49,768 bases of DNA from a virus. Shown here in pieces: positions 21,840 through 46,036 of this stretch (its first letter is position 1; every line of letters starts with the position of its first letter). Made by a program: the position numbers and the translations under genes. Where the stretch lies: IMG/VR virus record IMGVR_UViG_3300032148_000003, positions 1 to 49,768 of that record. One strand, written 5' to 3'. The notes below the pieces were generated by a model that saw only the letters and a list, made by a program, of their open reading frames with translations, was not told the DNA's origin and did no database searches.

Positions 21840-21847
21840 ATTAACTC

Positions 21848-23629: not shown

Positions 23630-23835
23630 TTAAAATCCCCAGGTTCTATTCTTATATCCAACATCTCTACACCCTCATCATCATAGCTAGACTCATATGT
23701 GAGCCTCCCCTCATTGTGCATCTGTATGGCATCTATCAATCCCCTATCGTATGCGTTGCCATTAGACCAATGTGTGTACCATGCACCTAATGCACATACT
23801 GCTACCAGTATCTCCCACATTAAACCCTCACTCAT
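23626..23835 (-). CDS. Small membrane-anchored protein
   Basis: 69 residues. An N-terminal hydrophobic segment (MWEILVAVCALGAWYTHW) is followed by NGNAYDRGLIDAIQMHNEGR, a pattern common in small phage proteins. The C-terminal part is acidic. It overlaps the large RNR subunit start by 4 bases and the upstream 58-residue gene by 8 bases. Function unknown. Confidence 0.65.
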   Translation of the reverse strand: MSEGLMWEILVAVCALGAWYTHWSNGNAYDRGLIDAIQMHNEGRLTYESSYDDEGVEMLDIRIEPGDFK

Positions 23836-24004
23836 AATCTCTCCCTTTATATTTTGATATTCTCTTGAAACCCATCTCTTTTAGAAGTTGTAATGTGGTC
23901 TCCATGCTGAGATATAACTCCCAGTCTTCACCACTCTCACACCTACCCTTCATATCAGACATACGTTCAAGTGCCTCTTCTATACATATAGAATCACTTT
24001 CCAT
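23828..24004 (-). CDS. Small hypothetical protein (58 residues)
   Basis: The ATG (24002-24004) shares one base with the DNA polymerase stop codon (TGATG arrangement), and its TGA overlaps the start of the next small gene. The product is acidic and helical (CIEEALERMSDMKGRCESGE). The overlaps on both sides support it as a real gene. No function recognised. Confidence 0.65.
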   Translation of the reverse strand: MESDSICIEEALERMSDMKGRCESGEDWELYLSMETTLQLLKEMGFKRISKYKGRDYE

Positions 24005-25968: not shown

Positions 25969-25979
25969 AATTCCCCCTA

Positions 25980-27659
25980 TTAAAATTCACTAAGTACTTT
26001 GTACAACCTCCCTGTAACCTTGTCATACCTAGACTTACCTGCAGGGCCAATAGTCCCTGAGAATCTATTCTTAAGTACATAAATCTTAACCTCTTGCCTA
26101 GCATCCTCTGTGTCAGCATGTTTGTTTCTAGAGAAGGCTATAGTCTGCATAGAGATTTGTTTAAGTGAACCAGACCCTTTCAAGTCATCCTCAGTAACCT
26201 CAGCACCTGCCTCAAATGATTTACTACCAGAAGGTGCCTTCCTTAAGTGTGATACAACACCAATCCATACATCATGCTTCTTACATAACTTAAGTAAGTC
26301 AGACATAACTTTGTCCATAGCTTGATTTTGATTACCATCTACCTCTGATATGGCCATAGTGATATGGTCTAAGTACAACCACTTACAACCGAGAGCTACC
26401 ATGTACTCCATCTTAATCATAAGAGAATCATCAGATACAGAACCCTGGTGATCTAATAAGGTTAATCTACCCAACCCCATAGTCTCATCCCAAGCCTTCT
26501 TACCTTCCTCTCCTTTACGATCAAAGTCTGAGTCAGGTAGATAGATAGGTTTATTGATATGAATGCCTACAATCCTATCCATCGTCTCTCTGACACTCTC
26601 CTCTAAGGACACAATACCAACTTGGTCATTAGTAGTCATCAGGAGGTGGTAGATGTCTTCCTTAGAGAAAGTAGACTTACCTGCACCTGTACCTGCTGTG
26701 AAGATAGTCAACTCACCTGTACGTCTACCATATGTCATGGCATTGACATTGCCGAAACAATCAGGGTAAGGTACTGAGTCTTCTCTTTTATCCTTAATAA
26801 ACTCTTCATAAGTATCTTTAGAGTTGATAATACCTGCAGGTGAGTACTGTTTAGCTTCCCATACGGCATTACTTAACTCTTTATCTTTACCGTTCACAAG
26901 GTAGTCAGATGCATCCTTACCGTGTTTACCAAGTTCGGCTATATAAGCTTTACCAGTCCTAATCATCTTAGCACAATGGTAACTTGCCTCTCTCCCCTGT
27001 TCATCAGCATCAAACATAATAACAACTTTATCAAAAGAGTTGACATACTCTAAGTTAAGTGCTATCTGTTTCTTAGCACCACCCGTGCCGTTGATCACAC
27101 TAACGACAGGGAAGAATCTTTTGTACTTCTTATAAAGTATTGTTTGGTAAGACATTGCATCTAAAACACCCTCAGTGATAACCAACATATTCTTTGATGT
27201 TGATACATCTGCACCAATAAGTTGCTGTGCATTATCTACACTACCAATACCTATAAACTTCTTACTATTCACATCCCTTCTTTGATAACCACCTATTTGG
27301 TTATTCTTACCTAACACGGGGTAGTAGTGATACTTAATCTTTCTATTGTTATCGTATCCTACTTTTACTCCATAAATCTCTGATATAACTTTAGGTATCT
27401 TCCTATCTTCAAAACCTCTAACCTCAAAGTCATTCTTAATATCATTTACCGCTTCTACGTCCTCAAAATCTGTTGTCACTGTAGGTGCCTCCCACTTATA
27501 GCTATCTTTATATTCTTCTATTCTTGACTGCTGACATGAATAACAGAAAGAAGTAATCTTATCTCCATTATCGTAGTAAGCCTTTGCATCAGATGAATCA
27601 CATCCATCAAAATCACAAGGTTGCCCCGACTTCAGTAGTTTCCCTTTATCTTCATTCAT
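25980..27659 (-). CDS. Primase-helicase (T7 gp4-like)
   Basis: 559 residues, close to T7 gp4 (566). An N-terminal zinc-binding domain has two cysteine pairs (PCDFDGC and FCYSC, residues about 14-42). The TOPRIM primase core shows ITEGVLDAM and VVIMFDADEQG (about 160-225). The helicase has Walker A GTGAGKSTF near 325 and Walker B KWLYLDHI near 425. It unwinds DNA as a ring and primes the lagging strand. It lies between SSB and DNA polymerase, the expected replisome order. A terminator hairpin stands just upstream, between it and the SSB gene. Confidence 0.95.
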   Translation of the reverse strand: MNEDKGKLLKSGQPCDFDGCDSSDAKAYYDNGDKITSFCYSCQQSRIEEYKDSYKWEAPTVTTDFEDVEAVNDIKNDFEVRGFEDRKIPKVISEIYGVKVGYDNNRKIKYHYYPVLGKNNQIGGYQRRDVNSKKFIGIGSVDNAQQLIGADVSTSKNMLVITEGVLDAMSYQTILYKKYKRFFPVVSVINGTGGAKKQIALNLEYVNSFDKVVIMFDADEQGREASYHCAKMIRTGKAYIAELGKHGKDASDYLVNGKDKELSNAVWEAKQYSPAGIINSKDTYEEFIKDKREDSVPYPDCFGNVNAMTYGRRTGELTIFTAGTGAGKSTFSKEDIYHLLMTTNDQVGIVSLEESVRETMDRIVGIHINKPIYLPDSDFDRKGEEGKKAWDETMGLGRLTLLDHQGSVSDDSLMIKMEYMVALGCKWLYLDHITMAISEVDGNQNQAMDKVMSDLLKLCKKHDVWIGVVSHLRKAPSGSKSFEAGAEVTEDDLKGSGSLKQISMQTIAFSRNKHADTEDARQEVKIYVLKNRFSGTIGPAGKSRYDKVTGRLYKVLSEF

Positions 27660-27674
27660 ATTTTCCCTCAGACA

Positions 27675-27715
27675 TAAAAAAACCCCACACCTAAATAAAT
27701 AGATATGGGGTCTTT
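27675..27715 (-). terminator. Intrinsic terminator downstream of the SSB gene
   Basis: Read on the minus strand, ACCCCA (27711-27706) pairs with TGGGGT (27687-27682) and is followed by a run of seven U (27681-27675). It stands between SSB and the primase-helicase gene, so it probably attenuates the SSB transcript, giving SSB more mRNA than the downstream genes. Confidence 0.85.
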
Positions 27716-27734
27716 ATTTATATTTTATCTATAC

Positions 27735-28280
27735 TTAGAATACATCCTCTTCAACTACAGCTTCTTTAATTGCTTTAACAGAAAATTCACTTCCTGCTTC
27801 CTTTTCAAAACCGAATTCATCAGAACCATCCGATCTAACATAAGGTACCAAACTAGTTACTACTACATTTGCAAGACTCATTGACTGTCCCTTCTTACCG
27901 TTATATGACCAATCATATATAGTATATGAGACGTGTCCCTTAGAACCATTACCAATACCTACAGTACTAGTGTCTAGTGGTTCCATCTTACCTGCTTCGT
28001 TCAAGATGAATGCCCCTGGTGGGATCAAACTCTTACCATCTTTAGATATGGCTAACTTGTTGACATTAATTTTATACATGCCAGTTTCGTTACCATCCTC
28101 ATCTTCAACTTCTTTCAAGTTACGGATAAGTTTGTCCTTCTTCAAGGCCTTTGCTGTATCTTTATCTACATGTGCAGTCACAGTCCAAACCAATTTCTCA
28201 AATGATTCAGTTGGTTTGGCAGGATCTACCGAACACCAATGTAACTCTACATCTCTAAGTACTTTCCTTTCTTGTGCCAT
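27735..28280 (-). CDS. Single-stranded DNA-binding protein (T7 gp2.5-like)
   Basis: 181 residues. The length and overall pattern fit gp2.5-type SSB. The acidic C-terminus ending in phenylalanine (AIKEAVVEEDVF) is the hallmark tail through which gp2.5 contacts polymerase and helicase. A candidate phage promoter lies about 80-100 bases upstream and a terminator just downstream, so it can be made in excess over the rest of the operon. The start follows TGAGGAATAAAG. Confidence 0.85.
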   Translation of the reverse strand: MAQERKVLRDVELHWCSVDPAKPTESFEKLVWTVTAHVDKDTAKALKKDKLIRNLKEVEDEDGNETGMYKINVNKLAISKDGKSLIPPGAFILNEAGKMEPLDTSTVGIGNGSKGHVSYTIYDWSYNGKKGQSMSLANVVVTSLVPYVRSDGSDEFGFEKEAGSEFSVKAIKEAVVEEDVF

Positions 28281-28360
28281 CTTTATTCCTCACGATTATT
28301 ATTATATTATTTTAAATGCAGCAACCAACTAAAGCTGTTCACATACTTCGTTAGTTATCT

Positions 28361-28380
28361 GCAATGGTGAGCCAACCCTA
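28361..28380 (-). promoter_or_regulatory. Candidate phage RNA polymerase promoter (leftward, before SSB)
   Basis: On the minus strand the element reads TAGGGTTGGCTCACCATTGC, one of seven copies with the invariant core TGGCTCACC. It is between the exonuclease and SSB genes. The eight or so bases after it (AGATAAC) match the copy at 29241-29260. Confidence 0.75.
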
Positions 28381-29211
28381 CTAAGTCCTTTCGTAGCAAG
28401 CTTTAGGGATTTCCCACATTTCACCTTTCTTCTGACGTATATACAGAAGTCTTCCTACCTCAAGTAAAGACTTTTCCCAAGTCTCACCATATTGGTTTCT
28501 ATATTGGTCGGCTATATCAGCCCACCTATTAGTAGAAGGTTCAAGTAATTTCTTAGTCTTGACCTTTCCTAATCCGTTAATTCCTGGAATATTATCTACT
28601 CTATCACCTAATATGAATTGATACTGTAGATGATACTCAGCCTCTTTCTCATTGACCCAATCTAAATAGTCAGTCCTAAAATCATAATGCCACCCTGGTA
28701 CAGTCCATAGATCTTTATCAATAGTACATATACATGTATCCTCTGTTTGATCTATACCTAATAAGTCATCAGCCTCCTCATTCTCACTTACCTTGGCCTC
28801 ATACTTAGTCTTAAGATACTTCCTAATGTCATGGTACTGATCTGGTTTCTCACTTGATCTGGAACCCTTATAAGGTTGTAACTTAGCTACATCATTTCTA
28901 AAGTTAGTATGACCTGAGATGTACATCTGATACAGGGTACATTTAGCCCTCTTAACAATCCAAGCTATCCTCTTATCTAATGCCTCCAGTGTTTCCTCTA
29001 GGGGACTACACCATTCCTTCTTTAGCTCTACATTAAAACCTTCAGCAGCTTGGGTGAATTGTGACATCTCTTTAATGAAACTATTACAAGCTGTCTTAGT
29101 ACTCTCGGTAGTTAGTATGTCCCCACTGTCATTCTTTACTACCCATTCTTTATTATGTGCCGACCAACCTAATTGGTAAACCAACACATCACCATCAATT
29201 AATGCCTTCAT
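28381..29211 (-). CDS. 5'-3' exonuclease (FEN/T7 gp6-like)
   Basis: 276 residues. The acidic metal-binding clusters of the FEN family are present in order: LIDGDVLVYQ at residues 4-13, NEEADDLLG near 139-147, TIDKDLW near 157-163 and LGDRVDNIPGI near 200-210. The last is followed by a helix-hairpin-helix-like GLGKVKTKKLL. In T7-like phages this enzyme removes RNA primers and degrades host DNA. It is the first replication gene after the RNA polymerase region and has its own candidate phage promoter upstream. Confidence 0.9.
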   Translation of the reverse strand: MKALIDGDVLVYQLGWSAHNKEWVVKNDSGDILTTESTKTACNSFIKEMSQFTQAAEGFNVELKKEWCSPLEETLEALDKRIAWIVKRAKCTLYQMYISGHTNFRNDVAKLQPYKGSRSSEKPDQYHDIRKYLKTKYEAKVSENEEADDLLGIDQTEDTCICTIDKDLWTVPGWHYDFRTDYLDWVNEKEAEYHLQYQFILGDRVDNIPGINGLGKVKTKKLLEPSTNRWADIADQYRNQYGETWEKSLLEVGRLLYIRQKKGEMWEIPKACYERT

Positions 29212-29240
29212 TGAAACTCCTCTAATTTCTGTTTGTTATC

Positions 29241-29260
29241 TGTAATGGTGAGCCAACCTT
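29241..29260 (-). promoter_or_regulatory. Candidate phage RNA polymerase promoter (leftward, before exonuclease)
   Basis: On the minus strand it reads AAGGTTGGCTCACCATTACA. It shares 9 core bases with all other copies, and beyond the core it continues GATAAC like the copy before SSB. It lies about 30 bases upstream of the exonuclease start, in the gap to the divergent plus-strand gene. Confidence 0.78.
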
Positions 29261-29269
29261 AAAATAAGC

Positions 29270-29297
29270 TTGACATATTAGAAAGTGATGATATAAT
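29270..29297 (+). promoter_or_regulatory. Sigma70-type promoter, rightward
   Basis: TTGACA at 29270-29275 and TATAAT at 29292-29297 are both perfect consensus boxes, separated by 16 bases. The predicted start is near 29304. It points at the plus-strand secreted-protein gene about 240 bases away, so host RNA polymerase could express that gene early and independently of the phage enzyme. Confidence 0.8.
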
Positions 29298-29299
29298 TC

Positions 29300-29485
29300 A
29301 CTTGTCTTTGGTTTATTTTCACCTTACGGGGTTTGGTAGAAAACAGAATCAATTTGATTTGTCACTAACGTAGAGGGGTGACAAGAGATAGGTGAGAAGC
29401 ATATAACAGTAGAGGCCTACCCCGAGGAACCACTAGTAGCGACTCACCCATTTCCCTCATTCAGTACACTATATTAGAGGAGTCT
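29300..29485 (+). ncRNA. Structured leader or candidate small RNA
   Basis: Nothing is coded here, but the sequence can fold. TTGTCAC (29359-29365) pairs with GTGACAA (29378-29384) in a 7-bp hairpin. GGTGAG (29391-29396) pairs with CTCACC (29443-29448), closing a loop that contains GTAG/CTAC. It lies between the sigma70 promoter and a phage promoter, so it would be the 5' leader of the secreted-protein mRNA or a separate RNA. GGTGAG could instead pair with the CTCACC of the downstream promoter region. Folding was judged by eye. Confidence 0.4.
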
Positions 29486-29490
29486 TATAT

Positions 29491-29512
29491 AGCTGGCTCA
29501 CCTATAGAAGGG
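29491..29512 (+). promoter_or_regulatory. Candidate phage RNA polymerase promoter (rightward, before secreted-protein gene)
   Basis: The element reads AGCTGGCTCACCTATAGAAG then GG. After the core it has TATAGAAGGG, the closest of the seven copies to the initiation region of known T7 and SP6 promoters. It is 28 bases upstream of the ATG at 29540. Confidence 0.8.
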
Positions 29513-29539
29513 AACAACTTTTAACTTTAGGATAATATA

Positions 29540-29842
29540 ATGAAAAAACTAGCAATAGCAGTATTAACTGTAGCAACAATGGGTTCAGCATCAGCAGGAT
29601 TCTTTGACAATAACAACTTCACACCTTGGGGTAACAACCTGAACAATGGATATGCAGAAGACAACGGTATCTTCTCATACAACCCATACTCATACTTCAA
29701 CCCACGTTGGTACATCAAAGAAGCTAATAACTTCATGAATGAGATCGATGAAGGTGGTGAGTACCAACCAAAGTCTAACCATAACTTCCCTGCTCAATAT
29801 GAGAATGGAAATCAGGTTACATATGGTTATAAGTATAAGTAA
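29540..29842 (+). CDS. Secreted Asn/Tyr-rich small protein, lone rightward gene in the replication block
   Basis: 100 residues. A clear signal peptide (MKKLAIAVLTVATMGSASAG, cleavage near 19) leads to a mature part rich in Asn, Tyr, Phe and Gly with no Cys (PWGNNLNNGYAEDNGIF, then YNPYSYFNPRWYIKEANN). Its codons favour C-ending AAC, TTC and TAC, unlike most neighbours, as expected for high expression or a host origin. It has both a sigma70 and a phage promoter, and AGGATAA before the ATG. The composition recalls sulfur-globule and other Asn/Tyr-rich envelope proteins of sulfur-oxidising bacteria, but I cannot confirm homology. It ends 7 bases from the convergent RNA polymerase gene with no terminator between. 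Confidence 0.75.
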   Translation: MKKLAIAVLTVATMGSASAGFFDNNNFTPWGNNLNNGYAEDNGIFSYNPYSYFNPRWYIKEANNFMNEIDEGGEYQPKSNHNFPAQYENGNQVTYGYKYK

Positions 29843-29848
29843 TTAAGA

Positions 29849-32131
29849 TCAACTGATGATGTAGTTAGCATGTAATACTTCATCGTCGGTTACATCTCCA
29901 TAGATAATATCAGAGTCATCAGATCCCAAATCCTTCAATATAGAGGATAAAGTACTTGGCCCTATAGTATCTATGAAGATCATCTTAAACTCGTCAAATA
30001 GGGTATCTACGTGACTCGCAGGGACACTGAACTGGTCATGTATCATCATGAAGTCAGTGATCCCAATGCGGCCCAACTTGGACAAGACCATAGTCATGAG
30101 AGAGGCATCAAGTGAATGAACAATATTAGCTGAGATGCCTGTCTTATGTCTTTTTCTTAGAATACCCTTATAACCGAAGGCGACTGTTATCATCAACCTC
30201 CTATCTCCAAACCTTACTCTTAATCTCTCAGTATGTATTCGGCCATAACCTTGAAATGCTGTAAAGTTAGTAGGAGTCTTCCAAGATAAGTAGACATCCT
30301 CAGCTTTCTTAACTGCATCACATGCTGTCTTTTGGAATACTTTAAGTGTGTTTGCTTGTGGTGGGTAAGCCCCATCTTTACCGTCAAGTGCTTTGAAGAT
30401 ACATCTAGACAAAGCCTTAGTGTCTTTAAATTTCATGTTCGTGAAGGCATCAGAGCCAAACGTGCCTCTATCGTTGTACAACTGGTATCTGATACAATCT
30501 TCACCTGCTGAGTAATAGTAGGACATACATGGTCTTTTGGTGACTTTCCTAGATCCATATTCTATGTAATCATTAAGTTGAAATGCAGTAACGAGATTCT
30601 TATCCATCTCTTTTTCATCTTCTACATCCTCAAACTTATCCATCATCTTATACATATTATTAACGGCAACAGACCAAACCTCATCATAAGCATCACCGAT
30701 TTCTCTAGTAGGATGTTGTATAACATTAGTATCTTGACAACCATTTCTATCCCTAGTTAAGAATGACAGGATCTGGAGGCCAGAATTGGTAGCGTCTAGC
30801 CCAACAGGGATTCTACATTGCCAACCCTCACTACCATTCTCTTTCAAGTCTACAAAAGCTATAGCACTTGCTAAGAATTGCCACTTAGTCTTCTTCTCAC
30901 CCTGTAATCTCATGATTAAGTCAGAGTTAAGAGGGTCTTCAACAGCATGCTTAATAGACTCATAATTATCATAGACCCAATCAACTCTATCCTGCTTAGA
31001 CAACTTATCCATACCTGCACAATTAGCTACGTGGTAGGCCAAGTGAGCCTCTACATTCTCTGACCATTCTTGAGGATTAGCAAACTGTAGTAGAGCCTTA
31101 GAAAGATCACTACCTGTAGGCTCTAACCACTGTTGCATAGGATAGAATCTACCTCTACTGTCTAATTGAAAGTCAAAGTGGAAAGGCTTATCTAATGAGC
31201 TTCTGCTTCTTTCATTAATAATAGTAGCCTTCTTAAGTACCATATTAAATTCTCTTCTCTTAGAGTGTGCAGCAATTATCTTAATCAGAGGTTCAGACCT
31301 CTCTGTATACCAATCTTTAGCCATCTGTTTAGATAACTTATCTAAGTACCTACTATTAATACCTTGAGCCAAAGCCCACTCAGCCTTCTTATCTTTAACA
31401 AAGTCTTCCTTGTTCTTGATCTTCATTAAGTCACAGATAGATTCAGTAACCATAGATTGTGATATTTCCTCAGGTATCCAACAGTGGTCACCCTCTTGCA
31501 TAAGTGAGACAGTCTTAAGTATCTCCTCATTAATCAAGAAAGGAGTACTACCATAGTTATTGAGAGCCTCATAGACATGGGGTATCTCTTGCTTAGAATA
31601 CTTCCCATCCCACCCAACAGGCATCCTCTTAACAATAGAATTAACACCCTTCCAAGGCTTATCCCAAGGTGTGTAGTGGTCAGTAGGAAACTCCCCTAAT
31701 GATTCATCAGAATTAAGTATAAGCTTAAGAAACTCATCACAAGCAGGCTCTAAAGTATACATCTCATTCTTACCACCTATCTTAATAGGTTTAGCTAATC
31801 TTATACAACCACATATCTGTAAGAGACCAACAGCCTCTATACCAATCTTAATTAATTCTCTCTTCTTCTTGTAGTTACCACCAAAAGTAAGCTTAGACAT
31901 CTTCTCACCCTCTAAGTGTAGTAACTTAGTACCGATAGACTCACCAATACTAACTAACTGCTCTCTATTAGCAACCCCCTTAACAACAGCCTCTAATATA
32001 GTATTAGCTAACTCTTCTCTATCACCCTCATATCTTCTTAAGTACTTACATAACGGAGAAGGATTATTCTTAGCCTTCTGTGCTATATTAATCTTATCCA
32101 CTAACTTATATAAAAACTTCCTATCAATCAT
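29849..32131 (-). CDS. Single-subunit DNA-dependent RNA polymerase (T7-like)
   Basis: 760 residues, shorter than T7 (883). Motif A is GLDATNSGLQILSF (Asp near 445), motif B is VTKRPCMSYYYSAGED (near 528-543, keeping the Lys and the Tyr equivalent to T7 Lys631 and Tyr639) and motif C is MMIHDQFSVPA (near 697). The palm and fingers are therefore intact. The N-terminal domain is reduced by about 100 residues. The segment between AFGYKGIL and NIVHSLD, where T7 has its promoter-specificity hairpin, is about ten residues shorter. The C-terminus lacks the T7 FAFA foot. It should transcribe from the TGGCTCACC elements found around it. Start follows GAGGGGAATTAGTT. Confidence 0.95.
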   Translation of the reverse strand: MIDRKFLYKLVDKINIAQKAKNNPSPLCKYLRRYEGDREELANTILEAVVKGVANREQLVSIGESIGTKLLHLEGEKMSKLTFGGNYKKKRELIKIGIEAVGLLQICGCIRLAKPIKIGGKNEMYTLEPACDEFLKLILNSDESLGEFPTDHYTPWDKPWKGVNSIVKRMPVGWDGKYSKQEIPHVYEALNNYGSTPFLINEEILKTVSLMQEGDHCWIPEEISQSMVTESICDLMKIKNKEDFVKDKKAEWALAQGINSRYLDKLSKQMAKDWYTERSEPLIKIIAAHSKRREFNMVLKKATIINERSRSSLDKPFHFDFQLDSRGRFYPMQQWLEPTGSDLSKALLQFANPQEWSENVEAHLAYHVANCAGMDKLSKQDRVDWVYDNYESIKHAVEDPLNSDLIMRLQGEKKTKWQFLASAIAFVDLKENGSEGWQCRIPVGLDATNSGLQILSFLTRDRNGCQDTNVIQHPTREIGDAYDEVWSVAVNNMYKMMDKFEDVEDEKEMDKNLVTAFQLNDYIEYGSRKVTKRPCMSYYYSAGEDCIRYQLYNDRGTFGSDAFTNMKFKDTKALSRCIFKALDGKDGAYPPQANTLKVFQKTACDAVKKAEDVYLSWKTPTNFTAFQGYGRIHTERLRVRFGDRRLMITVAFGYKGILRKRHKTGISANIVHSLDASLMTMVLSKLGRIGITDFMMIHDQFSVPASHVDTLFDEFKMIFIDTIGPSTLSSILKDLGSDDSDIIYGDVTDDEVLHANYIIS

Positions 32132-32165
32132 AACTAATTCCCCTCTTATTTAATTATATTTATGT

Positions 32166-32185
32166 AGCTGGCTCACCATTAGAAG
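32166..32185 (+). promoter_or_regulatory. Candidate phage RNA polymerase promoter (rightward, beside RNAP gene)
   Basis: It reads AGCTGGCTCACCATTAGAAG. It points away from the RNA polymerase gene into a non-coding gap and then antisense into the early operon. The predicted transcript begins right at a long inverted repeat (32181-32267). Confidence 0.75.
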
Positions 32186-32267
32186 TAACTCTGACTAGAC
32201 AGTCATCATAGTTGCATATCACTACCCCCCTATTATGTGTGTTGCATAACAGAGTTGGGTTACTTCT
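32181..32267 (+). ncRNA. Candidate hairpin RNA from a phage promoter
   Basis: AGAAGTAA (32181-32188) pairs with TTACTTCT (32260-32267) and CTCTG (32189-32193) pairs with CAGAG (32250-32254), leaving a 5-base bulge (TTGGG). Inside, TGCA..CAC can pair with GTG..TGCA. The RNA would start exactly at the stem's 5' arm, because the promoter's ATTAGAAG supplies it. No coding frame is seen in 32132-32462. A GC hairpin at 32451-32463 could end the RNA. Structure and transcription are predictions. Confidence 0.45.
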
Positions 32268-32296
32268 CTAACAAAGACCCTAAAGGATCAATAACC

Positions 32297-32320
32297 AAGG
32301 TTGGCTCACCAATAGAAGGA
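32297..32320 (+). promoter_or_regulatory. Second rightward candidate phage promoter in the RNAP-upstream gap
   Basis: It reads AAGGTTGGCTCACCAATAGA then AGGA. It lies 131 bases after the first copy, in the same orientation and outside any gene. Transcripts would run through the 11-bp repeats and the hairpin at 32451 toward the early genes in antisense. Confidence 0.75.
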
Positions 32321-32415
32321 TACTCTATATTAGACTATACTAGCTCAAATGCTATCGTATTAACCCCTACTTACTACATTACTACATGACCTCTTAAACC
32401 AAACACTAAGAAGAT

Positions 32416-32440
32416 CTATAATAGACCTATAATAGACCTA
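32416..32440. repeat. Tandem 11-bp repeats (CTATAATAGAC)
   Basis: CTATAATAGAC occurs twice in tandem (32416-32426 and 32427-32437) and begins a third time. Related 11-bp repeats (CCACAATAGAC) lie at 38193-38225, in the other large regulatory gap. Confidence 0.8.
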
Positions 32441-32450
32441 CTGTATTCCT

Positions 32451-32463
32451 GCCCCGAAGGGGC
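32451..32463. terminator. GC hairpin, possible terminator or attenuator
   Basis: GCCCC-GAA-GGGGC forms a tight 5-bp hairpin touching the stop codon of the small leftward gene. On the plus strand it is followed by TATTCTTTG, a poor U-tract, and on the minus strand by AGGAATAC. It may weakly terminate the rightward RNA or protect an mRNA end. Confidence 0.4.
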
Positions 32464-32663
32464 TATTCTTTGTGGTTAGTACTACTTGACTGTATTGGTG
32501 AGCCAGCTACCCCTGACGGAGTAACTAATTGAAATTCAACATCCATCATAGCAATCAACTTGATGTATGAGGTTCTGTTTAGTCCCATCTTAGATGCCTT
32601 TAGATCTAATTGCTTAAGTGTCTCTGTTGGTAATTTTAAGTTTACTTGTTTCATTTGGTTCAT
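32463..32663 (-). CDS. Small ribbon-helix-helix-like DNA-binding protein
   Basis: 66 residues. Residues 5-40 (QVNLKLPTETLKQLDLKASK, then MGLNRTSYIKLIAMM) follow the ribbon-helix-helix pattern: a short strand, then two helices with GLNRTSYI at the turn. Such proteins are small dimeric repressors. The C-terminal 20 residues are low-complexity, and their codons contain a minus-strand phage promoter copy (32491-32510). The start overlaps the preceding gene's stop (ATGA). It is the last early gene before the RNA polymerase gene and could regulate nearby transcription. Confidence 0.65.
   Translation of the reverse strand: MNQMKQVNLKLPTETLKQLDLKASKMGLNRTSYIKLIAMMDVEFQLVTPSGVAGSPIQSSSTNHKE
32491..32510 (-). 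promoter_or_regulatory. Candidate phage RNA polymerase promoter upstream of the RNAP gene
   Basis: On the minus strand it reads GTAGCTGGCTCACCAATACA, inside the 3' end of the ribbon-helix-helix gene. It points at the RNA polymerase gene about 360 bases away, so the enzyme could amplify its own expression. Confidence 0.7.
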
Positions 32664-32839
32664 TGTGTGTATTCCTCTGTTGTACCCTTGAGTACGTCTG
32701 TGTAAAAAGGTAGCTTAACAGTACCCAATCTAATCTTCTCTGAATTAAAAGTAATACTACCATCTTTCTCTGTTGCACCGAAGGTAGTAACCTTTACTTC
32801 GTTATCTCTTCTATAAGTTGTTTTTACTTTATAAATCAT
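32660..32839 (-). CDS. Small early hypothetical protein (59 residues)
   Basis: The frame begins at ATG 32837-32839, overlapping the previous stop, and ends in a TGA that overlaps the next ATG (ATGA). The product is basic and beta-rich (MIYKVKTTYRRDNEVKVTTF, then KIRLGTVKLPFYTDV). Linked overlaps on both sides support it. No function recognised. Confidence 0.65.
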   Translation of the reverse strand: MIYKVKTTYRRDNEVKVTTFGATEKDGSITFNSEKIRLGTVKLPFYTDVLKGTTEEYTQ

Positions 32840-32958
32840 TTATTTAATCTCCATTCATTAGAAGCCCCTGTTGGGGCAAGTTTAAAGGTATCTTTATTAT
32901 ACTTCAATTGTAGTCCATTAGAAGAGTCTTCTTCGAATTCTCTAGTTAAATTAGTCAT
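32836..32958 (-). CDS. Small early hypothetical protein (40 residues)
   Basis: ATG at 32956-32958 overlaps the stop of the 142-residue gene and its TGA overlaps the next start. The product is mixed charged (TREFEEDSSNGLQLKYNKDT). Real by context, function unknown. Confidence 0.6.
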   Translation of the reverse strand: MTNLTREFEEDSSNGLQLKYNKDTFKLAPTGASNEWRLNK

Positions 32959-33386
32959 CATAATGCCTTATTCAGTAAAGCCCAATGACCTAAGGGGTCA
33001 AAGTACATTCGATCTTTTATCATCTTACTAACCTTGTTATACTCTTCATCACGACCCTCCCTAAGAGGTGAGAATATCTTCTTACTGTTACCCTTCATAG
33101 TGCATAACCTACCACCTGCTGTAGTTGATTTGCATGTAGTGTTGTACTTCTTTGCTAAGTATGCCGCAAGAGTCTCAGCCGTCCACCTAGAGCCATCGTC
33201 TAGTGTGTACTCTATTCTTGAGTCTTTTCTAGTCGGGCTTAGTTTCTTGTAGACCTTACTTGGGTCCGTGGATGATTGAAGTCTAGACCAACAAGTACTC
33301 TTAGCCCAATTCAATTCCTTAACCATATCCTCTACTGTTGTAGTAGAGCCATCGTCTAGTGTATATACGTGTGTTTTAGAGTTCAT
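32958..33386 (-). CDS. Early protein with duplicated YTLDDGS domain
   Basis: 142 residues containing two related units. The first (about 7-50) starts VYTLDDGSTTTVEDMVKELN and the second (about 58-110) starts EYTLDDGSRWTAETLAAYLA. Each is a short strand followed by a helix and a basic stretch (STCWSRLQSS, TTCKSTTAGG), a layout resembling small winged or helix-turn-helix DNA-binding units. It overlaps the upstream 60-residue gene by 11 bases. DNA binding is inferred from layout and charge only. Confidence 0.6.
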   Translation of the reverse strand: MNSKTHVYTLDDGSTTTVEDMVKELNWAKSTCWSRLQSSTDPSKVYKKLSPTRKDSRIEYTLDDGSRWTAETLAAYLAKKYNTTCKSTTAGGRLCTMKGNSKKIFSPLREGRDEEYNKVSKMIKDRMYFDPLGHWALLNKAL

Positions 33387-33558
33387 TAGACTTCTCCGTA
33401 TACTTTGTCACATCGGGCAGTGGGTTGTGGTAAGTACTATTCACCATCTTACTCTTGAAGCAGTAACCTTTGGCTAACTTCAGTACTGATTCACCCGCTC
33501 TAATCTTCATCATTGTTACTTTCTTACATATATTAAACTTTCTATTTATTCTATTCAT
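33376..33558 (-). CDS. Small basic early hypothetical protein
   Basis: 60 residues, basic (MNRINRKFNICKKVTMMKIR), overlapping the next gene's start by 11 bases. The upstream sequence AGGATATGAAATG provides a ribosome site. Function unknown. Confidence 0.5.
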   Translation of the reverse strand: MNRINRKFNICKKVTMMKIRAGESVLKLAKGYCFKSKMVNSTYHNPLPDVTKYTEKSNEL

Positions 33559-33584
33559 TTCATATCCTCATCTGCATAAAACTA

Positions 33585-34673
33585 CTAAAAACTCAAACAT
33601 TGTTGTATCCCTTTATTGTTATAACCACTTAAAGATTCGGTTACCTCATAAGATTCACCAACTCGATCAAACACAATACCCTTTAAGATATGTACTATGA
33701 CATCACACGTCATGCCATTCCCCAACATTTTGTACCTCTGTGTGTTGCTGACACCTTCAGTATAGTTATCGGGTACTGTCTGCAGTCTCTCACATTCTAA
33801 AGGTGTAAGCTTGCGGTACCTCTTCTCTGATACTAATACCTTTGGCTCTCTATGACCACCACCCATTGTAGTAAGTGTTGGTGCTTTCCCTGTCTCAGCA
33901 TAGACACGTTTGATTGATTGATTACCTTTGATGTCTGTTGCTGTTGCTACATGGTGACAAGTGGAGTCCTTGTTAAACTCTCTTGGCTCACATGGTCTCA
34001 AGTCTACAACACCATAAGGCACGCCCTTATACTGTACTGCTACGATACAACTAGCTTTACCATCTAAAGGGTTCTTATGGTAGTCAAACCTTGGCTTACC
34101 ATTACGTAGTCTACCCATATAGTCTATTGCTTTATCCGATAGATAAAACTTAGGATCTGGAGACTTCTCTAGTATGTCACCTAGTACAATCCCTTTATCC
34201 TCGGGTTGTGTAATAGGTAAGTTAGTCCAATAGAGTCTGTTGCGATTCTGACCACTAAGTAGTGAAGAGTTAATCATTACAGGTGCTACACCTAATTGTT
34301 CTGATATGACATCTTGAAATTCCTTCTTCATACGTACATTCTCTAGTAAGAAGTACTTGGGCTTCAGTTCCTTAAGAAGTCTTACGTATTCAAAGAATAA
34401 GGAGCTTCTAGGGTCGTCAAAGTTAAGTTGTTTACCTGCAAAGCTAAAGCCTTGACATGGTGACCCACCCATTAGTAAATCAATAGGTGGTAAGTCATCT
34501 GCTATGACCTTTGTTACGTCACCAATATGTTTGGTATTAGGATAGTTTTTCTTAGCTATCTCAATAGCCCACTTATCAATCTCTGATGCGTAGTAGTTGT
34601 CAACTTGGATACCTAGTTTGTCTAGTGCGATTTGACCGCATGACATCCCGTCAAATAGTGATAGTACGTTCAT
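33585..34673 (-). CDS. DNA (cytosine-5) methyltransferase
   Basis: 362 residues. Conserved motifs appear in order: I (LSLFDGMSCGQIALDKLG, residues 4-21), IV with the catalytic cysteine (GGSPCQGFSFAGKQ, near 74-87), VI (ENVRM), VIII (QNRNRLYWT) and IX-X (LTPLECERLQTVPDNYTE, then RYKMLGNGM). It transfers methyl groups from SAM to cytosine C5. The target is set by the variable region, about 175-275, which cannot be predicted here. No restriction endonuclease is adjacent, so it probably protects phage DNA from host restriction. Its start overlaps the stop of the upstream gene (ATGA). Confidence 0.95.
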   Translation of the reverse strand: MNVLSLFDGMSCGQIALDKLGIQVDNYYASEIDKWAIEIAKKNYPNTKHIGDVTKVIADDLPPIDLLMGGSPCQGFSFAGKQLNFDDPRSSLFFEYVRLLKELKPKYFLLENVRMKKEFQDVISEQLGVAPVMINSSLLSGQNRNRLYWTNLPITQPEDKGIVLGDILEKSPDPKFYLSDKAIDYMGRLRNGKPRFDYHKNPLDGKASCIVAVQYKGVPYGVVDLRPCEPREFNKDSTCHHVATATDIKGNQSIKRVYAETGKAPTLTTMGGGHREPKVLVSEKRYRKLTPLECERLQTVPDNYTEGVSNTQRYKMLGNGMTCDVIVHILKGIVFDRVGESYEVTESLSGYNNKGIQQCLSF

Positions 34674-35233
34674 GATTTCCTCGTTGATTGTTTTGTTAAG
34701 TAATCCATCTTATCACCGTAAGTGTCTTCAGCGTATTCATCAAGGTTTAACTCAAAGTCAGTAACATACTTTCCAACATTATCATTAACCTTATCCCAAG
34801 CTATTTCACTCGCTTCGTCTTCATCGAATGCATCTACTGTCACTGATTCACTAGTCCAATCAATATAGAATGAAAAAGATCGTTTACATTGATGTGGTTT
34901 GGCTTGAGATTCAAGGCATTCACCATCTTCATTAGTCTTAATACATTCAAACTCTAACTCTTTATTACATCGACCGCAGGTGACCTCTGTTGCTAACCAA
35001 GTGGCTACTTTAGTACCACCTGTTATGTCATTAGCATTTTCCATTGCATTGACAAAGTTATCAGTAAGTAGGAATTCTCTATCTAAGTCATCTGTAGTGC
35101 CATTGGCAATAGCATCTATGTCATCTGTCTTAATCCCTAGACTATCCATGTATCTATATAAGTTAGTCAGTTTAGTATCTTTAATAATCACCTTCTCAGT
35201 GATTGACTCTACTCTTTTAATTAAGTCTTGCAT
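34670..35233 (-). CDS. Hypothetical early protein with cysteine-rich centre
   Basis: 187 residues. The N-terminal half is helical. The centre has CGRCNKELEFEC and two further cysteines (GEC, QCKR), enough for a zinc ribbon. The C-terminus is very acidic (VDAFDEDEASEIAWDKV). It overlaps the methyltransferase start by four bases. No family recognised. Confidence 0.6.
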   Translation of the reverse strand: MQDLIKRVESITEKVIIKDTKLTNLYRYMDSLGIKTDDIDAIANGTTDDLDREFLLTDNFVNAMENANDITGGTKVATWLATEVTCGRCNKELEFECIKTNEDGECLESQAKPHQCKRSFSFYIDWTSESVTVDAFDEDEASEIAWDKVNDNVGKYVTDFELNLDEYAEDTYGDKMDYLTKQSTRKS

Positions 35234-35235
35234 GA

Positions 35236-35517
35236 TTAACCCTCCACCTTGTAGTAAGTACCATCCGCACTAATTCTAAATATAGTGCCTAGGTTGATTG
35301 TTCTGTATTCACCCTTAGTAGCTTCGTATACAACCTTATAAGAGTTACTTTTATGTTCTACCCTGTTGACACCACCTTTAAGTTTAGACTTAACACCTAA
35401 TCGGCAAGTCATTGACCTAAGTGTGCCGTCCTTCTTGGTGAAGTCAACAGTAAAGAAACGACCATTAGTGCTGTTAATTAAGTTAAGTAGTTTAGTTCTA
35501 TTTATTGTTTCGATCAT
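35236..35517 (-). CDS. Widespread small phage protein (NGRFFTV-KKDGT family)
   Basis: 93 residues. The pattern NGRFFTVDFTKKDGTLRSMT then CRLGVK, ending in YRTINLGTIF, is one I recognise as recurring in many unrelated phages as an all-beta small protein; its function is unknown. Overlapping starts and stops tie it to the early operon. Family recognition is from memory of the motif, not a search. Confidence 0.65.
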   Translation of the reverse strand: MIETINRTKLLNLINSTNGRFFTVDFTKKDGTLRSMTCRLGVKSKLKGGVNRVEHKSNSYKVVYEATKGEYRTINLGTIFRISADGTYYKVEG

Positions 35518-35675
35518 TTTTCATCCTCATGTATTTGTTTATCATATTGTTTACCACAATAGTCATCATAACTTTTGTACCCCTTAAGTTGATAGTGTTT
35601 ATCAAGTAAGTCACCTAATGATACCATGTCATCTATAAGTTTGGTATCTATTTTATCCTTTTTATCTATATTCAT
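35514..35675 (-). CDS. Small early hypothetical protein (53 residues)
   Basis: ATG at 35673-35675 directly follows the stop of the upstream gene (35676), and its TGA overlaps the next ATG. The product is charged (MNIDKKDKIDTKLIDDMVSL, then KGYKSYDDYCGKQYD). The sequence upstream of the ATG (TTGGTACTTAG) lacks a strong ribosome site, so coupling is likely. Confidence 0.6.
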   Translation of the reverse strand: MNIDKKDKIDTKLIDDMVSLGDLLDKHYQLKGYKSYDDYCGKQYDKQIHEDEK

Positions 35676-35933
35676 CTAAGTACCAACCATTGTGTATTTG
35701 CCTACTTTTTGTTGGTTGTGCTTTCTATATCTAGTGCTTATTAAGTCCACCATAGTGTCACTGTAATGACGTTCAATGTCACTATCCATAGTTTCATAGC
35801 ATTTGATTGTGTTAAGTTTATCGTAACAATCTAAAGTATCAGCACTCACAAACACATATAGATTGTCTTGTAAGTAGTTATAAGTAGCTTGCTTATCTAT
35901 TAAGTTTTTCTGTTTCTTGTTTAGTTTTCTCAT
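35676..35933 (-). CDS. Small early hypothetical protein
   Basis: 85 residues. A basic N-terminus (MRKLNKKQKNLIDKQATYNY) is followed by a mixed region with Tyr and Asp (VDLISTRYRKHNQQKVG). It is the first gene after a 265-base gap. Function unknown. Confidence 0.55.
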   Translation of the reverse strand: MRKLNKKQKNLIDKQATYNYLQDNLYVFVSADTLDCYDKLNTIKCYETMDSDIERHYSDTMVDLISTRYRKHNQQKVGKYTMVGT

Positions 35934-36198
35934 TGTTAGTTACCTCTAAGTATTAAGTATTAAGTAGCCCTGCTGCCAGATCTGGGCGGTTTTATCCGTT
36001 ACCTCTAATCCTATGATCTGGAATACAAGCTCCATATTTGCCCATATAGGCGTTATTATTGTTTATCCTTGTATTGGTATTGCTTTTGATTAATCGTATC
36101 TGTTTACCCCCTTATTGATTGTTTATTTATATAATAGCACTCTCAGTTAATGCCATTATATAAAGACTCAAAAATACCCCATTTAAGGGGCAACAGTA
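35934..36198. other. Intergenic gap within the early operon, with a terminator hairpin at its right end
   Basis: 265 bases with no gene of credible length. At 36176-36190, read on the minus strand, GCCCC-TTAAAT-GGGG is followed by TATTTTTG, a short intrinsic terminator for the 67-residue gene. Two copies of TTACCTCTAA (near 35939 and 35999) are present. I see no good sigma70 pair or TGGCTCACC element, so what starts transcription beyond the hairpin is unclear, unless it leaks. Confidence 0.6.
36176..36190 (-). terminator. Short intrinsic terminator or attenuator in the early operon
   Basis: A 4-5 bp GC stem (CCCC/GGGG) with a 6-base loop, followed on the minus strand by TATTTTTG. The stem is short, so leakage is expected. 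Confidence 0.5.
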
Positions 36199-36402
36199 CT
36201 AAAAGATTGACTGTTTATAACTTTCAGATATAGGCTTGTAAATTGCTTCACCTATGGCATAAAACAAATCATCAAGCCCTTTGCCTGATAAACCTGTAAT
36301 CATTGCTAACTGCTCTCTTTGTCGCCTCTCATTGAACGATGCATCATGCACTAACATATGTATGTAATTATCCGTGCATTCTTTGAGTTGTTTGTCTGTC
36401 AT
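36199..36402 (-). CDS. Small early hypothetical protein
   Basis: 67 residues, helical, with QREQLAMITGLSGKGLDDLF in the middle, which resembles a short helix-turn-helix-like unit. The ATG follows AGGGGCTTACA. Followed closely by the hairpin at 36176-36190. Function unknown. Confidence 0.55.
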   Translation of the reverse strand: MTDKQLKECTDNYIHMLVHDASFNERRQREQLAMITGLSGKGLDDLFYAIGEAIYKPISESYKQSIF

Positions 36403-36518
36403 TGTAAGCCCCTATAAGCTCGATAAAATCTGTCATCATCAGTATTAAGGCGATAAGCCCCTAATAGACGGCAAAGGGTAAAAAGAGGTTAAACCCTAAA
36501 CCGTTTCGACTGTTTATA

Positions 36519-36632
36519 TTATATTAGTGGGTCTACCCATATTAGATAAACTGTAAATGCATACAATGCTAATACGGTTAGTGTGAATAGTATTGCCACG
36601 TTAACTAGTGTTTCAATTACATTGATTTTCAT
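36519..36632 (-). CDS. Small membrane protein (37 residues)
   Basis: The ATG (36630-36632) overlaps the stop of the upstream gene (ATGA). The product is almost entirely one hydrophobic segment (LVNVAILFTLTVLALYAFTV). Small early membrane proteins in phages often affect host envelope functions or exclusion, but this one is not assignable. Confidence 0.6.
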   Translation of the reverse strand: MKINVIETLVNVAILFTLTVLALYAFTVYLIWVDPLI

Positions 36633-36877
36633 GCTTCAACCTCCATCATAAACTCTACTGCATCCATTGCTGAACCTGTGCACAGTCCACCATCTACAGG
36701 TCTCATTATTCGAGCATCAACATCATCTGTTAAGAGCCCATCATCACTAATTTCAAACACTTCTACCATGTAACCACCTTCAGTTTTGTTTATTTCGTAA
36801 AAGTCCCAATCGAAGAATGCGACTTGCCCTTGTTGCTCTAATATTAAAGCGTGAAATCTTTTTATGCTGTTTGTCAT
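36629..36877 (-). CDS. Small acidic early protein
   Basis: 82 residues, acidic (EVFEISDDGLLTDDVDARIM), with a Trp/Phe-rich N-terminal half (QVAFFDWDFYEINK). The start is preceded by AAGGGGATAAC. It could be a DNA-mimic type inhibitor by charge alone, which is a guess. Its stop overlaps the next small membrane gene. Confidence 0.6.
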   Translation of the reverse strand: MTNSIKRFHALILEQQGQVAFFDWDFYEINKTEGGYMVEVFEISDDGLLTDDVDARIMRPVDGGLCTGSAMDAVEFMMEVEA

Positions 36878-36886
36878 GTTATCCCC

Positions 36887-37159
36887 TTAATTTATGTATA
36901 CATCGAAGTGTGTTGCATATCTATGTGGTAAGTTTTGGTCGAAGTATCTCGGGTTATGTCCCTCTAATATCGCCCACTTTTTACGCTCACCACGCGCCAT
37001 TAGTCTCACTCTCATAATTGGTATGTGTCTACATTCTCTAGCGTATTTGTTATTCTGTCTAACCAATTCTTTTAGTTTAATTAATCTCTTATCGTCTTTA
37101 GTGTTAACCGTGAAACGGTAAGCCATTGTTTCGATTCTACCTGTTTTTATATATGCCAT
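36887..37159 (-). CDS. Small basic early protein (90 residues)
   Basis: I place the start at the ATG of MAYIKTGRIETMAYRFTV (37157-37159), which has AAGGGGTCA upstream. A longer frame would overlap the previous gene without a ribosome site. The product is strongly basic (RLIKLKELVRQNNKYAREC, then MRVRLMARGERKKWAILEG), suggesting nucleic-acid binding. No family recognised. Confidence 0.6.
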   Translation of the reverse strand: MAYIKTGRIETMAYRFTVNTKDDKRLIKLKELVRQNNKYARECRHIPIMRVRLMARGERKKWAILEGHNPRYFDQNLPHRYATHFDVYIN

Positions 37160-37172
37160 TGTTGACCCCTTA

Positions 37173-37829
37173 TTAGTGTTTAAAATATGATACTGTTTCG
37201 ATCGATTTATCCCAACATTTACGGCATGACCCACATTTACCGCCATTGTCAAAACTTCTACACGTTGCATCGTCTTTATTAGTTACTACCGTTGATGTGT
37301 GGCTGTAAATAGGTGGTTTGCCGTCAATCATTGAACCGCTCAAGCGTATGATTAGGTTTTTAGGTATTGAACCACTAAAGTTTTTGATTAGTTCACTCTC
37401 TTTAGTTGGTAACCAAAACCTCACACTTGGATTATCAACCGCTATTTGTATAATCTTATTGAAGTGTTGCAAGTTCTGAATATCCCCTGCATCATGCCAT
37501 CTGAATACCTTTGATGTGGTTATGCTCTTTTTATTGCGTATCAAGTAGTTAAATGCATCAACCCACTGTGGTCCCTTGATGGTCTCTAGTCGCTTGTATT
37601 GTGATTGTATGATTTTCGGATACCTTGTATAGTTACCTTTCAAAGCATAACACGTTGAACAAACTGAGCCTTTTATTAGTCTAAGCCTTGACCCCTTATT
37701 ACACTCTTGTGCAGGGATTGAGTAAGATGCACTAGGCATTTTAGAGGTCTCAGTTAAGCCTCCTATCAATGATAGTGCATGTTTGATTGTTGTTATTGGT
37801 GTTGTTAGATTGTTTGTTAATGTTGTCAT
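37173..37829 (-). CDS. Cysteine-rich GP88-like phage protein
   Basis: 218 residues. Motifs include GSVCSTCYALKGNYTRYP (about 54-71), SKVFRWHDAGDI (near 106-117), VRFWLPTKESEL (near 136-147) and a C-terminal CRSFDNGGKCGSCRKCW. These match, as far as I remember, the phage gene product 88 family, whose arranged cysteines and HxxGD-type block suggest a metal or Fe-S site and a barrel-like fold. Function unproven. It is the second gene after the early sigma70 promoter, so it is expressed at the start of infection. Confidence 0.6.
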   Translation of the reverse strand: MTTLTNNLTTPITTIKHALSLIGGLTETSKMPSASYSIPAQECNKGSRLRLIKGSVCSTCYALKGNYTRYPKIIQSQYKRLETIKGPQWVDAFNYLIRNKKSITTSKVFRWHDAGDIQNLQHFNKIIQIAVDNPSVRFWLPTKESELIKNFSGSIPKNLIIRLSGSMIDGKPPIYSHTSTVVTNKDDATCRSFDNGGKCGSCRKCWDKSIETVSYFKH

Positions 37830-37831
37830 GT

Positions 37832-38005
37832 TTATGCTACTTTATGAGTTAATGTTACAATCGAGTTATCATTAATACCATTATCTTTTAATAACTCCAA
37901 TAGCTTGACGTATGTTACATTTCTTATTGTGATTATCTCACTAACCGTCGTTACCTTATATGTCATTTTTACCGTGTAGTCTTCTTTGTGTGTTGCTTGT
38001 CTCAT
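37832..38005 (-). CDS. First early gene: small basic protein (57 residues)
   Basis: ATG at 38003-38005, preceded by AAAGAGGTTACAC. The product is MRQATHKEDYTVKMTYKV followed by a Thr/Val-rich, partly helical sequence. It is the first gene after the strong leftward sigma70 promoter (start about 28 bases downstream of the -10 box), the usual place for host-takeover proteins. No family recognised. Confidence 0.65.
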   Translation of the reverse strand: MRQATHKEDYTVKMTYKVTTVSEIITIRNVTYVKLLELLKDNGINDNSIVTLTHKVA

Positions 38006-38038
38006 TGTGTAACCTCTTTGTTGTTGTGTTAGATGCCT

Positions 38039-38066
38039 ATTATATACCTCTTTTATATACTGTCAA
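38039..38066 (-). promoter_or_regulatory. Strong sigma70 promoter for the early leftward operon
   Basis: Read on the minus strand, TTGACA (38066-38061) and TATAAT (38044-38039) are exact consensus hexamers with a 16-base spacer. An AT-rich stretch lies just upstream (TATTTATATAAATATG), like an UP element. It would let host RNA polymerase transcribe the early genes, ending with the phage RNA polymerase. Confidence 0.9.
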
Positions 38067-38495
38067 CACTTATTTTACATATTTATATAAATAAACTATA
38101 CAACACGCTGAAGCCCTTACTACCGTTGGGCTATGGGTCGCCCCATTTTTTACCCACTATAATCACCCTGTCGCACATATATCGCAATTAGCCCACAATA
38201 GACCCACAATAGACCCACACTAGCCACCTTAGTCCCCACCTAGTACCACATTAATCTCTCGGCAGCGTGAAGGGGCCTACCTTGGACGATTGATGTTGAC
38301 CCCTATGGTAGGCTACCCTAGATAAAGAAGTCCCCTATATGGTCTACTGTGGTAGTTTGAGGGGGTGTCCGAATGTTTCACGGTACCTATATATTAACAT
38401 CCCTTAAATAGGCTTGGTTTAAACGAAGGTGGGGCAGCAGGGTAACTTTAGTTAATTCTTAAGTCTAAAAAATACCCATATATATTTTATATACT
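38067..38495. other. Divergent control region between early and late operons
   Basis: About 430 bases with no credible gene. It contains AT-rich DNA next to the early promoter, tandem 11-bp repeats at 38193-38225, several GC-rich blocks (GGGTCGCCCC, GAAGGGGCCTACC), and an AT stretch (CCATATATATTTTATATACT) just before the late promoter. Such a mix, between divergent promoters, is a plausible place for an origin or packaging signal, but no direct evidence is seen. Confidence 0.5.
38193..38225. repeat. Tandem 11-bp repeats (CCACAATAGAC)
   Basis: CCACAATAGAC occurs at 38193-38203 and 38204-38214, followed by a diverged third copy (CCACACTAGCC). It closely resembles the repeats at 32416-32440. 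Confidence 0.8.
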
Positions 38496-38520
38496 AAGGT
38501 TGGCTCACCATTAGAGACTC
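38496..38520 (+). promoter_or_regulatory. Candidate late phage promoter
   Basis: It reads AAGGTTGGCTCACCATTAGA then GACTC, pointing at the first late gene 77 bases downstream. It is the only promoter-like site seen for the rightward structural block. An AT-rich stretch precedes it. Confidence 0.8.
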
Positions 38521-38596
38521 CTTATAAAACTGAGAGAGTTTTCTTACTTTTAATAAGATTAATAAGGCTGGTGATGGCTTTTAACGGAGATATAGT

Positions 38597-41599: not shown

Positions 41600-41623
41600 C
41601 ATTAAGATTTGAAGGAGTCTAAT

Positions 41624-43276: not shown

Positions 43277-43291
43277 AAATAGGAGATTATA

Positions 43292-45349: not shown

Positions 45350-45350
45350 T

Positions 45351-45587
45351 ATGAGTTCTAAGAAAGCAGAGAATATATATAGGACTATAGGTGGGGGGTT
45401 AGGTAGTATCACTGAAGCCCTCGAAGCCCTCTCATCCTTACAAGATGCTAATATTAAGATTAGGAAAAAGAAGAAGAAAGACCCAACTTTAGATGATATA
45501 CTTAAGAGAGATGGTGTATCTAAGATGGATTCTGATAGTTTTAATAAATGGTTTAAGAAGTTTATGAAGGTAAATAAGGAGAAGTAA
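45351..45587 (+). CDS. Small basic late protein
   Basis: 78 residues from the ATG at 45351, just after the portal stop (TGATATG). Its centre is very basic (IRKKKKKDPTLDDILKRDG) and its end is NKWFKKFMKVNKEK. No ribosome site other than coupling to portal. Function unknown; head completion is a guess by position. Confidence 0.55.
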   Translation: MSSKKAENIYRTIGGGLGSITEALEALSSLQDANIKIRKKKKKDPTLDDILKRDGVSKMDSDSFNKWFKKFMKVNKEK

Positions 45588-45833: not shown

Positions 45834-46017
45834 AGATTATAAAAAGGGTATTGATAGGTTTAAGGAATTAGAGACCTCTTTACTTAGAGACATTAACCTG
45901 TACACAGGAACTGGACGTGCTAGACAGTACGCTCAAGACCTGTTTGCAACACAAGAAATAATTAAGACATTAGAAGCTAAAGTTGCACCTGTAACTAATA
46001 AAGCTTCTAGTAAATAA
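45823..46017 (+). CDS. Small late hypothetical protein
   Basis: 64 residues, helical (KGIDRFKELETSLLRDINLY, then RARQYAQDLFATQEIIKTLE). Overlaps the preceding gene, with GGGAGAGGG upstream of its ATG. Together with its neighbour it forms a conserved-looking pair of small helical proteins between portal and scaffold. Function unknown. Confidence 0.6.
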   Translation: MMNEDYKKGIDRFKELETSLLRDINLYTGTGRARQYAQDLFATQEIIKTLEAKVAPVTNKASSK

Positions 46018-46036
46018 CTTTTAGAGGGAACTAAAA

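Follow-up and report, generated by a model that had tools for sequence, protein, structure and literature searches.

The 49,768-nucleotide virus record IMGVR_UViG_3300032148_000003 of IMG/VR comes from an uncultivated marine phage and was analysed in its entirety (hereafter, the window). It carries seven exact copies of the core TGGCTCACC, each inside an extended element of about 22-27 bp, and these elements are very probably promoters of the phage's own T7-type RNA polymerase. An earlier note had proposed such a seven-member family from this DNA alone, and all seven of the copies it listed are present. The strongest support is comparative: relatives with a similar polymerase keep the element at corresponding gene junctions, and where the relationship is more distant it is replaced together with the predicted specificity loop of the polymerase. 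The putative promoters are listed with their core positions, their scores against a 27-bp matrix and the related loci (L numbers) in which they are kept.

28354-28380, minus strand (core 28366-28374): leftward class, before a block encoding single-stranded DNA-binding protein (SSB, gp2.5-like), primase-helicase, DNA polymerase and ribonucleotide reductase (RNR); 39.4 bits; kept in L112, L008, L009 and L113, with an altered form at L012 6927(+).
29235-29261, minus strand (core 29247-29255): leftward class, before the exonuclease gene 28381-29211; 39.3 bits; kept in four relatives, with the L012 type at L012 6052(+).
29488-29514, plus strand (core 29494-29502): rightward class, before the small open reading frame (ORF) 29540-29842, toward the 3' end of the polymerase gene; 30.4 bits; kept in four relatives.
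32163-32189, plus strand (core 32169-32177): rightward class, first of a tandem pair, directed away from the polymerase gene into noncoding DNA; 33.9 bits; kept in four relatives, with a counterpart at L012 3783(-).
32296-32322, plus strand (core 32302-32310): rightward class, the other member of the tandem pair, likewise facing noncoding DNA; 34.6 bits; kept in four relatives.
32485-32511, minus strand (core 32497-32505): leftward class, sharing sequence with the 3' end of ORF 32463-32663; the gene it would drive encodes the polymerase; 23.0 bits; among relatives, in L112 only.
38495-38521, plus strand (core 38501-38509): rightward class, leading into the late genes (terminase, portal, capsid); 35.2 bits; kept in L032, L033 and L034, with an L012-type counterpart in L035 at 677.

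The elements are directional, near-identical over about 20 bp and placed at gene junctions, six of the seven being intergenic as the earlier note had stated; only 32497(-) reaches into a coding region, on the same strand. The two subclasses described upstream of the core were also found (AGGT or GGGT versus TAGC), as was the likeness to T7 and SP6 promoters in the start segment TATAGAAG. With up to one mismatch the core matches 16 places in the window against 7.3 expected, and no shuffle reached 16. The 27-bp matrix, trained on 24 distinct sites from relatives with the window sites excluded, ranks exactly the seven copies first, and the next place in the window scores 9.7 bits; in first-order Markov shuffles the maximum averaged 9.3 bits and came to 20.0 bits in one of 60. 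A 22-bp matrix trained on the window alone, the scan that had been suggested as a check, found the orthologous sites of eight related loci again, at 24-32 bits, along with one additional weak match (16.7 bits), and gave only four weak matches (at most 17.0 bits) in 0.79 Mb of other phage loci. Nor is the element abundant in unrelated genomes: in 17-base motif scans of all viral contigs, contigs beyond the family held one strong copy each, which is the chance level in so large a collection.

The same genome encodes a T7-family polymerase.

29849-32131, minus strand: T7-family single-subunit RNA polymerase of 760 aa, identified by PHROG 414, Pfam RNA_pol, and T7 RNA polymerase by sequence and fold.
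30161-30244, minus strand: predicted specificity loop, a beta hairpin of residues about 630-657, placed by alignment to T7 RNA polymerase and changing with the promoter.

The gene matches PHROG 414 (E 2e-99), Pfam RNA_pol (E 6e-44) and, by sequence, T7 RNA polymerase in PDB, which is also the best fold match of the structure model (E 4e-23; model confidence is modest, with a predicted local distance difference test score of 60). Residues aligned with T7 D537, K631, Y639 and D812 are retained. Among the catalogued phage relatives listed, the best reach only 25-27% identity, and no relatives were found in bacterial and archaeal genomes. In the model the predicted loop region forms two strands, residues 630-641 and 644-657. 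In the window and its close relatives (the window group) the aligned segment, whose T7 counterpart is RLNLMFLGQFRLQPT, reads RLRVRFGDRRLMITV or RLRVRFGEKRIMITV; L012 has RINVKFGKAKKDVTV, and relatives of about 38% polymerase identity have RVNCMFASRPVKLSY, RVNCSFAGKLVQLSY or RVNCTFAGKAVKLSY. In T7, N748, R756 and Q758 contact bases of the promoter; the sites aligned with them are constant inside the window group and differ among the window group, L012 and the relatives at about 38%.

The promoter element changes in step with this loop. Close relatives, whose polymerases are 95% (L007, L112), 90% (L011), 89% (L008) and 84% (L009, L010) identical to that of the window, have this element at corresponding junctions, to the extent that their contigs cover them: before SSB, before the exonuclease, after the polymerase gene facing back, and twice upstream of the polymerase gene facing away. 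In the aligned relatives the element stays constant while its flanks drift. L012, at 59% polymerase identity, has a different common element, AAGTTCGCACCTATAG, with core type TTCGCACCTATAG, at 3783(-), 3643(-), 6052(+) and 6927(+), that is, at the homologous tandem-pair, exonuclease and SSB junctions. The copy before SSB (L012 6926-6970) overlaps a terminator-like hairpin (GCATAC...GTATGC, then a T-run), and this stretch may end one unit and start the next. L035 has one promoter-like element within its 38.5 kb, again of L012 type, AACTCGCACCTAAAG, before the late genes. Among relatives at about 38%, the junction after the polymerase gene carries TATGACATCTTATAGAG in L013-L022, L024 and fragments, three exact copies of TATATCATCTAATAGGG in L023, and two copies of TATGACATCATATAAGAG in L025. 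A 20-base repeat search on L016 and L024 did not rank these promoters first because their copies are few; they were seen at the junction after the polymerase gene. There are thus at least four promoter types besides that of the window, each with its own specificity loop. The comparison of junctions could have failed, and the agreement is strong comparative evidence: replacement by whole sets would hardly be explicable unless the elements were promoters of this polymerase.

The start region separates the elements by strand, as had been suggested. At 31 of 31 sites in the window and close relatives, which as orthologues of seven loci represent few independent cases, position 3 after CACC is T. 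All 19 rightward sites continue with A-G-A at positions 4-6, and all 12 leftward sites with [G/A]-C-A. The rule is not absolute, since the leftward L012 copy at 6052(+) reads TATAG. For the rightward class the first transcribed base is most likely the G at position 5. The leftward class may start at position 4 or 6; here the start is ambiguous because a C stands in place of the G. T7 has two start classes, for middle and late genes, and by analogy the leftward and rightward elements would be middle-type and late-type classes, respectively.

Several points weigh against reading the elements as promoters of the phage polymerase. The relatives are few and come partly from the same samples, L009 and L010 counting once, and L012 is a single sequence at 59%. 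The copy at 32497(-), which would serve the polymerase gene itself, recurs in a single relative; just one promoter is available for some 29 kb of late genes; and the leftward class has C where a first-base G would stand.

The claim that each copy heads a transcription unit holds in part: 32497(-) recurs in a single relative, and 32169(+) and 32302(+) are oriented away from the polymerase gene into about 280 bp without a conserved ORF, so that they would head noncoding units only. Two features are predicted in this stretch, the first of them headed by copy 32169(+).

32182-32266, plus strand: predicted noncoding RNA whose first 10 bases, counted from the predicted +1, pair with its last 10; the end stem is present in five window-group sequences and in L012.
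32451-32463, plus strand: terminator-like hairpin GCCCCGAAGGGGC followed by TATTCTTTGT, found by consensus scan, a possible end of the tandem-promoter transcripts.

The terminator assignment is weak, the scan having given as many matches as shuffles. A coding candidate in the segment after 32169, a 50-aa frame, was rejected: it is broken in L008, L009 and L011.

The segment 32182-32266 (about 85 nt) is near-invariant in the window and four relatives. The homologous L012 site forms eleven pairs that start exactly at +1 and is followed by a T-rich tract, and no other site has a comparable end-to-end stem at that span. In both promoter backgrounds, then, the stem starts right at the predicted +1, which also speaks for the promoter reading. 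In a six-sequence alignment of the ten-pair stem, all 46 countable cells are paired and four pairs are changed on both sides in L012, to be read with L012 as a single sequence, alignment ends set at the stem ends, and a stem that hardly varies in the window group. When the partners were slid by 1-3 columns, 31-56% of cells paired and no pair was changed on both sides. In L009 each arm is three bases shorter and the outer eight pairs remain. Common to the window group and L012 are TCACTA and a C-run in the apical part. Folding energy is not unusual in the window (z-score -1.4) and unusual in L012 (z-score -2.6), so the argument for an RNA rests on the end stem and its compensatory changes. Searches with the Rfam 15 covariance models matched nothing in the window up to an E-value of 5 and gave only two sub-threshold matches, both in L012. 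An RNA of this end-paired form was not found behind the promoters of relatives at about 38%, where other hairpins are present. In these relatives strong hairpins stand directly behind other phage-promoter copies, at L016 2555-2600, L018 1470, L024 1137 and L025 6337-6403, and are possibly leader structures or further noncoding RNAs.

We give an even chance to the proposal that the tandem promoters make a dedicated, conserved, structured phage RNA of about 80-85 nt, with its first base paired with its last and a C-rich apex, that has been kept through promoter replacement. Such an RNA would found a new class of small RNAs in phages and may serve in origin priming or in regulation. Priming at an origin is the leading idea for its role because the primary replication origin of T7 is a tandem promoter pair adjoining the polymerase gene. 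The same resemblance favours a somewhat different and less likely possibility, namely that the pair 32169/32302 is mainly a replication origin at which the phage polymerase makes RNA primers, and that the stem works in primer processing or as a DNA element instead of belonging to a free RNA. The pair, its spacing and its position beside the polymerase gene are kept in all relatives having the region (+1 to +1, 133 bases in the window, 108-115 in relatives and 140 in L012), as an origin would lead one to expect; GC skew argues the other way, following gene direction only and making no turn at the pair. This alternative competes with the free RNA and leaves the promoter assignment of the elements as it is.

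Three other explanations would deny that assignment. The first, an improbable one, is that a phage repressor or another DNA-binding regulator, such as the ribbon-helix-helix-like product of ORF 32463-32663, uses the element as its operator. This ORF has a weak repressor-like match (PHROG 4738, E 8e-4), and there are multiple intergenic copies of the element. The element, however, is directional and non-palindromic, ends in a T7/SP6-like start segment, faces genes at the coding junctions and changes with the polymerase loop. Still less probable is use of the elements by host RNA polymerase with a phage-supplied sigma factor or activator. The virion genes are of SU10/phiEco32 type, and according to PMC8948821 a phage sigma factor is used by phiEco32-like phages. 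This genome instead encodes a T7-type polymerase, and the element lacks a -35/-10 layout, which genuine 12/12 sigma70 promoters elsewhere in the window possess. That the copies represent a scattered DNA repeat, or chance matches, and regulate nothing is hardly credible: the 17-base core form does occur in other viral contigs, at one strong copy each, but the family copies are orthologous, oriented, mostly intergenic and conserved against drifting flanks, and their set-wise replacement in L012 and the relatives at about 38% contradicts this explanation.

With the elements taken as promoters of the phage polymerase, the natural reading is a T7-like cascade, with an early phase under host polymerase followed by phases under the phage polymerase. 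Two host-type promoters match the sigma70 consensus at 12 of 12 positions.

38039-38066, minus strand: TTGACA-N16-TATAAT, toward the early genes and the polymerase gene.
29270-29297, plus strand: TTGACA-N16-TATAAT, toward ORF 29540-29842; conserved in L112, L113, L114 and L008.

In this scheme, whose binding, start sites and timing we infer, host RNA polymerase would act first, most likely at 38066(-), transcribing the leftward early genes together with the polymerase gene. The phage polymerase would then use its specificity loop to bind the GG(T)TGGCTCACC-type core, open the adjoining W-W-T segment and start 4-5 bases past CACC. Leftward copies (WWT[G/A]CAG) would drive the replication and nucleotide genes, and rightward copies (WWTAGA) the late genes from 38501, the small ORF 29540-29842 and the tandem pair yielding the noncoding RNA.

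ORF 29540-29842(+) encodes 100 aa with a signal-peptide-like start, is conserved in relatives and has no family match. It is preceded by both the perfect sigma70 promoter at 29270 and the phage promoter at 29494, and it is convergent with the polymerase gene, into which its transcripts would run antisense. The sequence CTATATTAG at 29464-29475 and 32326-32336, upstream of promoter 29494 and downstream of promoter 32302, is invariant in all aligned relatives. In the window ATAGACC occurs as a paired repeat, 11 bases apart, close to the tandem promoters (32421-32438) and upstream of the late promoter (38198-38215), and such repeats also occur in relatives (L008 85-96, L033 2274-2295, L023 3782-3844). 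The early region further includes a C5 cytosine methylase gene (33585-34673), a GP88-like gene (37173-37829) and ORF 32958-33386(-), whose first 40 residues weakly match Ren-like exclusion proteins (E 5e-8).

The structural genes are oriented rightward and extend from 38597 up to the record's end. L035 has homologues of window genes 509 to 14255 on the strand of its portal and capsid genes and downstream of them, so the late block probably runs on across the right end of the record into its left end. The genome is mosaic, combining SU10-type portal and capsid genes (41609-48092) with T7-type replication genes, RNA polymerase, RNR and PhoH (18311-32131). It does not belong with the T7-like phages (Autographiviridae): the polymerase is present, but genes lie on both strands and the portal and capsid are of SU10 type. 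No near-identical record was found among 50,697 phage genomes, and a tRNA search found none.

The outcome is a complete promoter map, open to testing, for an uncultivated phage in which T7-type transcription is combined with an SU10-type virion. Five polymerase/promoter types in which loop and promoter co-vary should be useful for decoding promoter choice by single-subunit polymerases and could supply orthogonal expression parts. The putative RNA, retained although the promoter was switched, raises the question of what use such phages have for a short, end-paired RNA.

Promoter sets of single-subunit phage polymerases are already known for T7 and SP6. The window resembles T7 in having a single-subunit polymerase of the same family and fold and repeated promoters of about 20 bp with a CTCAC core, a TATAG start and two start classes, as in the class II and class III promoters of T7. 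It differs from T7 in its core TGGCTCACC, with one extra base between CTCAC and the TATAG start, and in the low polymerase identity, genes on both strands, the tandem noncoding unit, the single late promoter and the SU10-type virion. SP6 promoters have the same start segment and a different recognition core. A literature search for the core TGGCTCACC turned up no phage promoter with such a core among the papers listed. Promoter sets are also known for EM1 (PMC9596486) and LUZ100 (PMC10134795). As in EM1, where the promoters TCAGAAGTCACACTATAA are active in vitro, the set of a divergent phage polymerase was found by genome scan; the recognition core is another one, and the window elements are predicted promoters. 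Unlike in the T7-like phage LUZ100, the element upstream of the polymerase gene (32497-) shows little conservation, and the predicted noncoding RNA, short and structured, adjoins the polymerase gene. The Roseobacter phage CRP-7 group, whose description does not mention promoters (PMC6918029), has the closest catalogued portal protein (41%) and also a distant T7-like RNA polymerase, but gene order differs and its RNR is cobalamin-dependent. Set beside these systems, the promoter set is a further case of an established type, and the RNA is a possibly novel lead.

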